64,000 nucleotides of DNA from Bacteroidaceae bacterium (lineage in GTDB: Bacteria; Bacteroidota; Bacteroidia; Bacteroidales; Bacteroidaceae): positions 186,001-250,000 of the forward strand of contig JAKSIO010000001.1 in the NCBI GenBank assembly GCA_024398785.1, read 5' to 3'. The notes beneath the pieces were generated by a model. It ran no database searches. It was given only the letters and a program-made list of their open reading frames with translations, and was not told the origin of the DNA. The translations under genes and the position numbers were made by a program. Shown one piece after another: positions 3,399 to 41,980 of the stretch (positions within the stretch are counted from its first letter, which is position 1; every line of letters starts with the position of its first letter).

Positions 3399-4234
3399 AA
3401 TCCCGTTCCTGCTTCATATTGATTATTGCTGCATTCATGCCGTTGGTGGCTTGTGCTGAAATCAATCAGGATTGGGGAGGTAGGATGATTGTAGGTGCCA
3501 AAGCCGGTTTGACCAAAAAACTTGACGTATCTGCAGCTGTCTCTTATTCTCTGCAGGATAAGTTTAGCGCAACCGATAAATATAAGTTCATAGCTGATAT
3601 TTCTTATAGAATCTTCAGAAACAAAGCTAAAACTTTTAGCCTGAAAACTCTTTTGGGGTATGAATACGTGAAGGAATACATGCCTGAAAAACAAAAGATC
3701 AAAGATAAGGGCACAATAACAGATTTTGAAGACAACGAATATCAGGAGTATAATCTTATTGATACAGATGCATGGTGGAACTCTTCACACAGAGTAAAAT
3801 TTGCTTTAAGCGGCAAGGTAGTGTTTTCCCGCTTTACCGTTTCCGTTCGTGAAATGTACAGATATTCCCATTCAATGCCTGTAGATGTAAATCAATCCAA
3901 ATCAAAGTTTCGCTATAGTGAGATTACAAATAAAGTGGAATTGGACTCGGTATTGTATGAGGTTGAAAGAAAGGGAAACAGCAATGAACATCTTTTGCGC
4001 TCAAGACTTCAGATAGAGTATAATATCCCGCATTGTAAGGCAGACCCTTTTATAATGGCTGAGATATTCAATAACGTGGCATCGGGTTTCAGATTGGAAC
4101 GTATGCGTTACCGTGCAGGCTTTGATATGACGTTTGCCAAACGTCATGGAGTCAGTGTTTATTATCAGTTGCAGAATTATATCGGGAATAAACTCTTGCA
4201 TACCCCGGTAATTGAATATACATACGAACTATAA
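3395..4234 (+). CDS. DUF2490 family outer-membrane beta-barrel protein
   Basis: A 279-residue protein with a signal peptide (about residues 1-21, ending ACAEINQDWGG). The rest is a run of amphipathic beta strands (KKLDVSAAVSYSLQ, RFTVSVREMYRYSH, HGVSVYYQLQNYIG) ending in YTYEL, whose closing aromatic and hydrophobic residues suit an outer-membrane barrel. DUF2490 proteins in Bacteroidota have this form and no known biochemical role. It starts inside the stop of the DUF4956 gene (4-bp overlap), so it belongs to the same operon and may be the outer-membrane component of the same process. Barrel topology is inferred from sequence pattern. Confidence 0.75.
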   Translation: MKSRSCFILIIAAFMPLVACAEINQDWGGRMIVGAKAGLTKKLDVSAAVSYSLQDKFSATDKYKFIADISYRIFRNKAKTFSLKTLLGYEYVKEYMPEKQKIKDKGTITDFEDNEYQEYNLIDTDAWWNSSHRVKFALSGKVVFSRFTVSVREMYRYSHSMPVDVNQSKSKFRYSEITNKVELDSVLYEVERKGNSNEHLLRSRLQIEYNIPHCKADPFIMAEIFNNVASGFRLERMRYRAGFDMTFAKRHGVSVYYQLQNYIGNKLLHTPVIEYTYEL

Positions 4235-4247
4235 TTGAATATACTAT

Positions 4248-4700
4248 ATGAGAAAACTTTTATTGCTGCTTGTGTTTGTATGGACTTTGAATATAAATGC
4301 TCAGTCCAGCCAGAATGTGGTATTCAGGCAAACCGGAACACAAGATATTGTCATGAATATTGATGATTTGGACAAGATTTTTTTTGAGGATAATACAATT
4401 ACATGCAAGCAGAACAACGGGGATGAAATTTCAATAGACCTGGATATGTTTTTAGGTTTTCTGTTGACCACGGTGCCTGCGGCCGTTGATAGAATCAATG
4501 ATACTGAACATATTTGTTATGTTGACGGTAATCTGGTTGTAAACAACAGCAAAGGTGAAATTGTCAAGTTGTACAATCTGACATCGCTTGTTAAGGAATT
4601 TTGTGTTGATTCTGATGCTCAAGTGATAGATCTGTCAGATTTACCAGCGGGTGTTTATATAGTTGAAACAGAATCTGAGACAATAAAACTGGTAAAATGA
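4248..4700 (+). CDS. small secreted protein with a type A-like C-terminal sorting tail
   Basis: A 150-residue protein with an N-terminal signal peptide (MRKLLLLLVFVWTLNINAQS). The body contains a short motif typical of Bacteroidales secreted proteins, where an exported peptide reports that a residue set DDLDKIFFEDN lies next to a beta strand. The last 35 residues (roughly LYNLTSLVKEF then LPAGVYIVETES and TIKLVK) resemble the terminal beta sandwich used for type IX secretion sorting, a reading supported by PorX and PorW homologues in this window. The fit is by pattern only; the tail could equally be an ordinary small beta domain. It lies 13 bp after the DUF2490 gene and overlaps the next gene by 4 bp. 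Confidence 0.6.
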   Translation: MRKLLLLLVFVWTLNINAQSSQNVVFRQTGTQDIVMNIDDLDKIFFEDNTITCKQNNGDEISIDLDMFLGFLLTTVPAAVDRINDTEHICYVDGNLVVNNSKGEIVKLYNLTSLVKEFCVDSDAQVIDLSDLPAGVYIVETESETIKLVK

Positions 4701-28975: not shown

Positions 28976-29007
28976 TTTGCCTACTATAAAAAAACACCTT
29001 ACCTTTG
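28976..29007 (+). promoter_or_regulatory. promoter of tRNA-Lys
   Basis: TTTG (28976-28979) and TACCTTTG (29000-29007) are 20 bp apart, a near-consensus Bacteroidota promoter, with the tRNA beginning 23 bp downstream. Confidence 0.75.
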
Positions 29008-29030: not shown

Positions 29031-29106
29031 GATCCGCTAGCTCAGCAGGTAGAGCACATCCCTTTTAAGGATGGGGTCTTGGGTTCGAATCCCAAGCGGA
29101 TCACCA
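29031..29106 (+). tRNA. tRNA-Lys (anticodon TTT)
   Basis: The cloverleaf is complete. The acceptor stem GATCCGC (29031-29037) pairs with GCGGATC (29096-29102). The D arm is CTAGCTCAGCAGGTAGAG. The anticodon stem CATCC/GGATG encloses CTTTTAA with TTT at 29064-29066. The T arm contains GGGTTCGAATCCC. Discriminator A is at 29103 and CCA is encoded at 29104-29106. Confidence 0.97.
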
Positions 29107-29245
29107 GGAATTGAATAAAAACGGCTCAGAACATAGTTCTGGGTCGTTTTTATTATTAGAGTCCGGTACAAGGAAAATTCATTTTCAATTGTACCGGACT
29201 CTAATAATAAAACGCAGCGTATGCTGCAGTTTTATTCAATTCCTG
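29105..29245 (+). repeat. three-hairpin element enclosed by a 16-bp stem, directly after tRNA-Lys
   Basis: A perfect outer stem (29105-29120 with 29230-29245) encloses three hairpins: a terminator-like one (29117-29151), a perfect 24-bp one (29048-type spacing; arms 29148-29171 and 29189-29212, with a further 6-bp stem inside its loop), and a short one (GCAGC 29214-29218 with GCTGC 29223-29227). The element begins within the encoded CCA of the tRNA. An element of the same plan follows tRNA-Pro at 41605-41751. It may act as RNA processing or termination structure, or as DNA cruciform; this is not known. Confidence 0.8.
29117..29151 (+). terminator. terminator hairpin of the tRNA-Lys transcript
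   Basis: A 16-bp RNA stem with two G-U pairs joins 29117-29132 to 29136-29151, starting with an A run and ending in a T run, so it could stop transcription from either side. Confidence 0.7.
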
Positions 29246-29270
29246 AGTCTGATAGCCCCCGGCAGGGGAA

Positions 29271-29343
29271 GGGATGGAGCGAGCGTCAGTGAGCTCAATC
29301 CCAATAGGGATAGTATTTAGCGAGCGTTAGTGAGCTCAATCCC
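29271..29343 (+). repeat. two hairpin-forming repeats of the tRNA-linked family
   Basis: Copies at 29271-29302 and 29307-29343 share GCGAGCGT[CT]AGTGAGCTCAATCCC. Each begins GGGAT and ends ATCCC, so each can fold on itself. The second ends exactly at the tsaE stop codon. They resemble the repeats after tRNA-Pro (GGATGGA, then GAGCG, then TCAATCC). Confidence 0.7.
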
Positions 29344-41524: not shown

Positions 41525-41600
41525 CGGGGTGTAGCTCAGCCCGGTTTAGAGTACGCGTCTGGGGGGCGTGTGGTCGCTGGTTCGAATCCAGTCACCCCGA
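41525..41600 (+). tRNA. tRNA-Pro (anticodon GGG)
   Basis: Acceptor CGGGGTG (41525-41531) pairs with CACCCCG (41593-41599), discriminator A at 41600. The anticodon stem CGCGT/GCGTG (with G-U pairs) encloses CTGGGGG with GGG at 41561-41563. The T arm has GGTTCGAATCC. CCA is not encoded (CAA follows), unlike the tRNA-Lys gene. Confidence 0.96.
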
Positions 41601-41604
41601 CAAA

Positions 41605-41751
41605 AAGTCAAAAAACACAAAAAGCAGAGAGAAATCTCTGCTTTTTATGTTTTGTACCGCCCAGCCGTTGAAAGCTTGCTTTCATAAGGCTGGGCGAGGA
41701 CAAAATAAAAGCAAGTAGCGCGTGCGCTGCTTGCTTTGTGTTTTTTGACTT
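41605..41751 (+). repeat. three-hairpin element enclosed by a 17-bp stem, directly after tRNA-Pro
   Basis: A perfect outer stem (41605-41621 with 41735-41751) encloses three hairpins: a 12-bp terminator-like one with GAAA loop (41619-41646), a long central one (TTTTGT 41650-41655 with ACAAAA 41700-41705, GCCCAGCC 41659-41666 with GGCTGGGC 41688-41695, GAAAGC with GCTTTC at the tip), and a GC-rich one (41710-41735). The plan equals that after tRNA-Lys, though the stems differ in sequence. Confidence 0.8.
41619..41646 (+). terminator. terminator hairpin of the tRNA-Pro transcript
   Basis: Perfect 12-bp stem (41619-41630 with 41635-41646), GAAA tetraloop, A run before and T run after. Confidence 0.8.
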
Positions 41752-41776: not shown

Positions 41777-41923
41777 TGGATGGACGGAGCGTGAGCGACG
41801 TCAATCCAGTCAGGAGTGTGCGACGTTTGCTGATGGACGGAGCTTGAGCGCCGTCAATCCAGTCAGGAGTGTGCGACGTTTGCTGATGGACGGAGCTTGA
41901 GCGACGTCAATCCAGTCAGTGCT
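41777..41923 (+). repeat. 2.8 tandem copies of a 53-bp hairpin-bearing repeat
   Basis: GATGGACGGAGC begins at 41779, 41832 and 41885, an exact 53-bp period. Each unit has a self-complementary half (GGATGGACG pairs with CGTCAATCC) and a conserved linker (AGTCAGGAGTGTGCGACGTT). The third copy lacks most of the linker. The remaining bases to 41935 hold nothing recognisable. Confidence 0.9.
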
Positions 41924-41935
41924 GCTGTTAATAGT

Positions 41936-41980
41936 ATAATATGACAGAATGACATACAATGTGTCATTCTGTCATATTAT
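41936..41980. promoter_or_regulatory. perfect 19-bp inverted repeat upstream of clpB, probable operator
   Basis: Arms 41936-41954 and 41962-41980 are exact complements around a 7-nt loop; the core is TGACAGAATGACA and its complement. It lies 70 bp before the clpB start, beside a TATGTTTA minus-7-like element at 41990-41997. No T tract follows, so it is not a terminator. A heat-shock or stress operator is a reasonable guess. Confidence 0.6.

Follow-up and report, generated by a model that had tools for sequence, protein, structure and literature searches.

Short palindromic repeats found 3' of bacterial genes are exemplified by the REP/BIME repeats and RAYT transposases, a system of GTAG- or CGTC-tagged palindromes (PMC3733652). 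The repeats are small, extragenic and sometimes in tandem, and they fold into irregular hairpins. MITE-like structured repeats such as ERIC and Nemis are bounded by terminal inverted repeats, whereas integron attC sites and the attC-like OTH-22-1 motif (PMC8632094) are imperfect palindromes with conserved unpaired bases. Finally, the intrinsic terminator of a tRNA gene is a GC-rich hairpin followed by a T-run. Here we examined an element of 115-160 nt that lies directly after certain tRNA genes of Bacteroidota and folds into the same predicted four-way junction, although its sequence differs almost completely from place to place.

We compared the element with each of these systems in turn. It resembles REP units in that a REP-like hairpin follows it, but at 115-160 nt it exceeds the 20-40 nt REP unit, no GTAG or CGTC tag was seen at its ends, and it has a fixed position and sense orientation behind tRNAs. 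Nor is a RAYT required, as no match to Y1_Tnp (PF01797) was found in the clostridial genome with 24 copies (G067) or in G061, G065, G066, G069 and G070, and the genome studied here has two distant ones (G, C and L number the genomes, contigs and individual stretches examined). The outer stem is reminiscent of the terminal inverted repeats of MITE-like elements, and clostridial relatives are multi-copy, some with 8-9 bp direct repeats; in Bacteroidota, however, copies are few, sit at tRNAs and have stems unique to each locus. Compared with attC, the Bacteroidota outer arms (such as CAGGAATTG, AAGTCAAAA and CAAAGCC) lack the RYYYAAC ... GTTRRRY end boxes, the fold is four-way rather than single-stemmed, and no integrase context was seen. 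Only L182, one of two gammaproteobacterial contigs with the apex motif described below, comes near on one side. In both of these contigs (L182 and L248) the motif sits in attC-like folds that start near TTAAC, and the outer stem of L182 is TAACGGGCTGCGGAT / ATCCGCAGCCCGTTA. The first hairpin with its T-run does fit an intrinsic terminator, but the remaining 100 nt or so are not needed for one. Against Rfam 15 only tRNA reached the gathering threshold, and a permissive scan gave only unrelated hairpin families. Nothing matching was found in the literature searched, which was open-access only, without supplements.

Predicted structure of the elements after tRNA-Lys and tRNA-Pro

The window, a 64,000-nt stretch (G000:C1:186001-250000), belongs to a 2.07-Mb Bacteroidaceae genome in 41 contigs (G000). 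Its tRNA promoters carry a Bacteroidota-type TACCTTTG box, which precedes most tRNAs of the genome. The features are as follows, all on the + strand:

29000..29007 (+): TACCTTTG, Bacteroidota-type -7 promoter box of tRNA-Lys; TTTG at 28976-28979 is the -33 box
29031..29106 (+): tRNA-Lys(ttt) with encoded CCA (ARAGORN; Rfam RF00005)
29105..29120 (+): outer stem, 5' arm (16 nt)
29121..29147 (+): H1, terminator-like hairpin followed by a T-run that is also the start of H2
29148..29212 (+): H2, 24-bp perfect stem with an apical internal loop, a variant of the conserved apex
29214..29227 (+): H3, 5-bp hairpin GCAGC-GTAT-GCTGC, itself followed by a T-rich arm
29230..29245 (+): outer stem, 3' arm (16 nt)
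29256..29268 (+): CCCC-CGGCA-GGGG hairpin
29271..29302 (+): REP-like hairpin GGGATGGAGCGAGCGTCAGTGAGCTCAATCCC with a conserved mismatch; its relatives follow most elements
29320..29343 (+): partial second copy of the REP-like hairpin
41525..41601 (+): tRNA-Pro(ggg)
41605..41618 (+): Pro element, outer stem, 5' arm
41619..41646 (+): Pro element, H1 terminator hairpin with T-run
41648..41707 (+): Pro element, H2 with conserved apex CCGTTGAAAGCTTGCTTTCATAAGG
41708..41737 (+): Pro element, H3 (13-bp hairpin)
41738..41751 (+): Pro element, outer stem, 3' arm
41778..41807 (+): REP-like hairpin GGATGGACGGAGCGTGAGCGACGTCAATCC, followed by partial direct copies to about 41920

An earlier note, made from the sequence alone, had described a 16-bp perfect outer stem beginning inside the encoded CCA of tRNA-Lys and enclosing a terminator-like hairpin, a perfect 24-bp hairpin and a 5-bp hairpin, together with an element of the same parts, order and nearly the same length after tRNA-Pro. 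This description proved correct. The outer stem (29105-29120/29230-29245), the 24-bp hairpin (29148-29171/29189-29212), the terminator-like hairpin (extended arms 29114-29132/29136-29154) and the 5-bp hairpin are all present, and tRNA-Lys ends at 29106, such that the left arm does begin inside the CCA. RNA folding of 29103-29250 gave -81.9 kcal/mol, compared to -25.5 +/- 3.6 for shuffled sequences (z -15.7), and the Pro element (41605-41751, 147 nt) gave -86.0 (z -13.7). Both folds are four-way junctions with almost no unpaired base at the junction. A detector for this architecture gave 5 hits in 400 random 204-nt windows, all of which fell on known copies of the element. Chance or an ordinary terminator was therefore rejected on the z-scores, this null detector and the covariation described below.

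Two refinements of the earlier description are needed. The outer left arm and the terminator stem overlap (29114-29120), and a terminator with an extended stem and the four-way junction are therefore alternative folds. In addition, although the note stated that the stems hardly share sequence, copies do share some sequence within a genome family, namely the H1 loop region, the H2 apex and part of H3. The term "fused to tRNA" is literal for some copies only, as others start 1-4 nt after the tRNA. A terminator scan called H1 of the Pro copy but not, on the + strand, H1 of the Lys copy, which is nevertheless seen in the sequence (CGGCTCAGAAC-ATA-GTTCTGGGTCG then TTTTT). Downstream of the Pro element, about two and a half direct repeats of a roughly 55-bp unit (GATGGACGGAGCTTGAGCG.CGTCAATCCAGTCAGGAGTGTGCGACGTTTGC) occupy 41778-41920 of the window. 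A perfect 19-bp inverted repeat with a 7-nt loop (ATAATATGACAGAATGACA) at 41936-41980, just upstream of a ClpB-like gene, is separate from the tRNA element.

Distribution, covariation and conserved apex

Reading 3' of the G000 tRNAs revealed complete elements after Lys(ttt), Arg(tct), Arg(acg), Pro(ggg), Pro(tgg) and Ser(cga), and a damaged one after Val(tac) whose intact form is present in the close relative G001. Other tRNAs read have plain terminators or none recognisable. After tRNA-Gly(gcc) (L006, on G000:C10), a second partial copy of the tRNA 3' end and terminator lies about 140 bp further on, enclosing an inverted segment. A covariance model built from five copies found in G000 only those five, all tRNA-linked, plus their own reverse strands. 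A truncated copy, from the H2 apex to the 3' end, lies behind a coding gene at C1:352223.

The earlier note had specified two outcomes that would count against it, namely an absence of further copies after other tRNAs or in relatives, and a lack of compensatory changes in the stems among homologues; neither occurred. After the same tRNA-Arg(tct), G001 has a 94% identical element, G005, G007, G008 and G011 have a second kind, G035 a third and G044 (another family of the order) a fourth, all with the same architecture and unrelated stems, while most congeners have a plain terminator. After tRNA-Val(cac), G020, G022, G023, G005 and G032 carry the element and the other orthologues examined do not. 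In the aligned Val(cac) set, 17 of 50 pairs change on both sides with 98% of cells paired, and sliding the partner by one column drops this to 1 pair and under 48%. The Arg(tct) set gave 13 of 60 pairs and 97%. Fifteen divergent copies from several orders gave 48 of 56 and 92%, although this last alignment was fitted to the model and thus leans to the structure. No shuffle reached these pair counts or covariation scores. Among the stretches read in G022 and G005 (L094, L096, L099), we also observed terminator-like hairpins flanked by inverted arrays of a 7-mer (AAAATTG / CAATTTT), which form very long stems from simple direct repeats.

The H2 apex is the only strongly conserved sequence across the family: (C)GTTGAAA-N6-TTTCATAAG, a short helix with a CTTG/CTCG-type loop above an asymmetric internal loop. 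A scan of GTDB genome contigs for this motif returned at least 119 stretches, where a handful were expected by our own estimate. Most hits in Bacteroidota lie behind tRNAs. Over all unique hits, 43 lie 3' of a tRNA on the same strand, 41 of them at 42-71 nt, against two in any other arrangement, and tRNA-Ser is the most frequent host. A covariance search of 296 genomes of the phylum hit 20 places outside G000, of which about 15 are directly 3' of a tRNA in sense orientation and one more follows what looks like a tRNA-Ser remnant; since only ten candidates per genome were scored, this prevalence is a lower bound. Cultured carriers of the element include Flavobacterium sp. HSC-61S13 and Robertkochia marina. 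Most elements are followed by a second irregular hairpin of the type GGGAT-x ... A-ATCCC, in 25 of 43 cases by a strict pattern and in more by eye.

Outside Bacteroidota, Clostridia carry the same apex in multi-branched folds, with up to 24 exact motif copies per genome, but not behind tRNAs. When a reading frame ends within 60 nt upstream, it is on the same strand in 19 cases and on the opposite strand in 4, two of these inside a predicted frame. Downstream neighbours showed no orientation bias, which argues against a bidirectional terminator for convergent genes. Several clostridial copies with ends GTAACAG...CTGTTAC are flanked by exact 8-9 bp direct repeats, for example AAAATTCTT (L300), AATAATTG (L234), GAATTTTT (L316) and ATAATTTC (L318), and so have probably transposed. 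However, these repeats were read by inspection in four copies and none was recognised for tRNA-linked copies, leaving it undecided whether the element is a MITE of a DDE transposon, which would have terminal inverted repeats plus a target duplication of constant length. Ends beginning GTAA and the 8-bp repeats suggested IS66 as the mover, but no matching ends were found and two copy-rich genomes, G063 and G067, lack its transposase. None of 2.9 million viral contigs had a slightly longer form of the motif, and no plasmid matched the clostridial form. In L179, L203 and L227, also from Clostridia, apex-bearing elements lie within a few hundred bases of the start of 16S rRNA genes, on the opposite strand.

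Possible role and turnover of the element

We next asked whether the element is likely to act as RNA or DNA. Stems that work as DNA cruciforms tolerate G.T and A.C equally, because the G.T of one strand is the A.C of the other. In H2 outside the apex, however, 62 G.U against 16 A.C mismatches were counted on the motif strand over 70 elements, and Watson-Crick-only folding of the tRNA-linked copies gave G.U to A.C ratios of 12:0 in H1, 22:4 in H2 and 3:1 in H3, although the outer stem showed no asymmetry (5:5). Excess C-to-T change on the non-template strand of strongly transcribed genes could imitate part of the G.U excess, and relatedness was not corrected for. Among non-tRNA copies chosen by motif alone, the sense strand was more stable in 72 of 89; the corresponding 41 of 43 for tRNA-linked copies is biased, because these were selected by sense-strand folding. 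Together with the fixed sense orientation, these data favour a role as folded RNA, or as single-stranded DNA of that strand, over a symmetric DNA cruciform.

The interpretation we favour, with moderate confidence, is that a structured RNA element is hosted behind tRNA genes and transcribed from the tRNA promoter. In this view, H1 with its T-run is the intrinsic terminator of the tRNA, and the short transcript ending there leaves a single-stranded trailer between tRNA and terminator. Transcripts that pass H1 would fold into the four-way junction, in which the A-rich and T-rich arms of the terminator are re-paired with distal arms (outer stem and H2) to give a closed, nearly fully paired fold; in the predicted fold of the fused transcript, the tRNA cloverleaf and the junction lie side by side. 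The H2 apex (G-UU / AUAA internal loop plus a CUUG-type loop) is probably where a trans-acting factor binds, which would explain its conservation, and the element would spread and turn over like a repeat, by tandem copying of its 3' unit. Our analysis demonstrates the fold, its covariation, the tRNA linkage and sense orientation, the strand asymmetry in H2, the conserved apex and the 3'-anchored partial copies, whereas the existence of the long transcript, binding of a factor to the apex and any effect on termination or tRNA 3' processing are inferences. No partner protein was found and no transcript data were examined for this organism; if H1 terminates efficiently, most RNA never contains H2 and H3. 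The element is also dispensable, as within one genus most members have a plain terminator after the same tRNA. Of the four possibilities raised in the earlier note, a structured RNA fits best, a DNA cruciform does not predict the asymmetry, a REP-type transposition unit has partial support from the REP-like hairpin and the tandem 3' parts, and a tRNA processing or decay signal is possible but was not tested. The interpretation in the note is thus supported in part, its central inference that the shared feature is structure having held.

Other explanations appear less likely. It is possible, though we consider it doubtful, that this is a selfish non-autonomous DNA element recognised as single-stranded DNA hairpins, as REP/RAYT, IS200/IS605 or attC hairpins are, which uses the 3' end of tRNA and other genes as a harmless home. 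The irregular H2 apex and the mismatch in the downstream GGAT...ATCC hairpin would then be enzyme recognition marks, and the copy number in Clostridia, the direct repeats, the tandem 5'-truncated copies and the presence or absence at the same tRNA among congeners are all consistent with this view. However, the absence of Y1_Tnp and IS66 from copy-rich genomes and the viral and plasmid searches speak against it, the two Bacteroidota genomes read closely (G000 and G001) carry only about 7 copies each, and fixed orientation and the G.U excess are better explained by RNA. A tandem double terminator is unlikely. In its favour, T-rich stretches follow both H1 and H3 on the + strand, the scan called terminator-like sites on both strands, and non-element tRNAs of the genome have single plain terminators where one was recognised, so that strongly transcribed tRNA genes could be closed twice, with the outer stem and H2 as by-products of A-rich and T-rich arms. 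However, A/T runs alone cannot give an H2 that pairs over 20-30 bp of mixed sequence with two-sided changes and an apex conserved across phyla, and several copies have no T-run after H3.

Least likely is a functionless palindrome made by template switching or inverted duplication of the tRNA flank and kept perfect by hairpin-templated correction. The outer-stem and H2 arms are indeed inverted copies of locus-specific sequence that change together; for example, the whole outer stem of the tRNA-Lys element is replaced on both arms between G000 and G001 while H1 and the 3' flank persist. However, the apex and downstream hairpin are conserved across orders and phyla, the tRNA-specific position holds phylum-wide, and templated correction is strand-symmetric, unlike the G.U excess. 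A further reading, also unlikely but not excluded, is a new class of tRNA-hosted structured RNA that copies itself through RNA or a hairpin-arrested polymerase, a bacterial counterpart of tRNA-linked short retroposons, with the apical motif shared by Bacteroidota, Clostridia and Gammaproteobacteria as its recognition signal. This reading draws on the partial copies found downstream, which are all direct, keep 3' parts and are cut off on the 5' side, often at the H2 apex or near the base of H3.

We regard the element as a new family that works like a terminator in its first hairpin and behaves like a structured repeat in its spread, a judgement of novelty resting on Rfam and the open-access literature only. 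What is unexpected is its linkage to tRNA genes, a place where extra structure is not anticipated, and the conservation of a strongly covarying fold under near-complete sequence replacement. If it acts as RNA, tRNA termination or 3' maturation in Bacteroidota has a layer not seen in model bacteria; if it is selfish, it shows a repeat that keeps its fold while replacing nearly all its sequence. The conserved apex makes the binding partner directly findable.

Finally, we examined partial copies downstream of the elements. All those found were in direct orientation, although only that strand was searched, and all lacked the tRNA-proximal arm and H1. They start around the H2 apex (L083, L288, L295, L296), near the base of H3 (L261, L290) or at the 3' hairpin (L268; G001:C11). 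This looks like copying from the 3' side that stops at stable hairpins, or slippage at hairpins, and our data do not distinguish between the two. In L138, at the end of contig G001:C11, the 3' unit (H3, right outer arm, CCCC-GGGG hairpin and REP-like hairpin) forms a tandem array at which the contig breaks, as do G000 C38 and C15 near the same repeat. In Flavobacterium sp. HSC-61S13 (L295, positions about 3925-4550, minus strand), tRNA-Ser(gga) with a full element is followed by four tandem copies that all start at the H2 apex hairpin.
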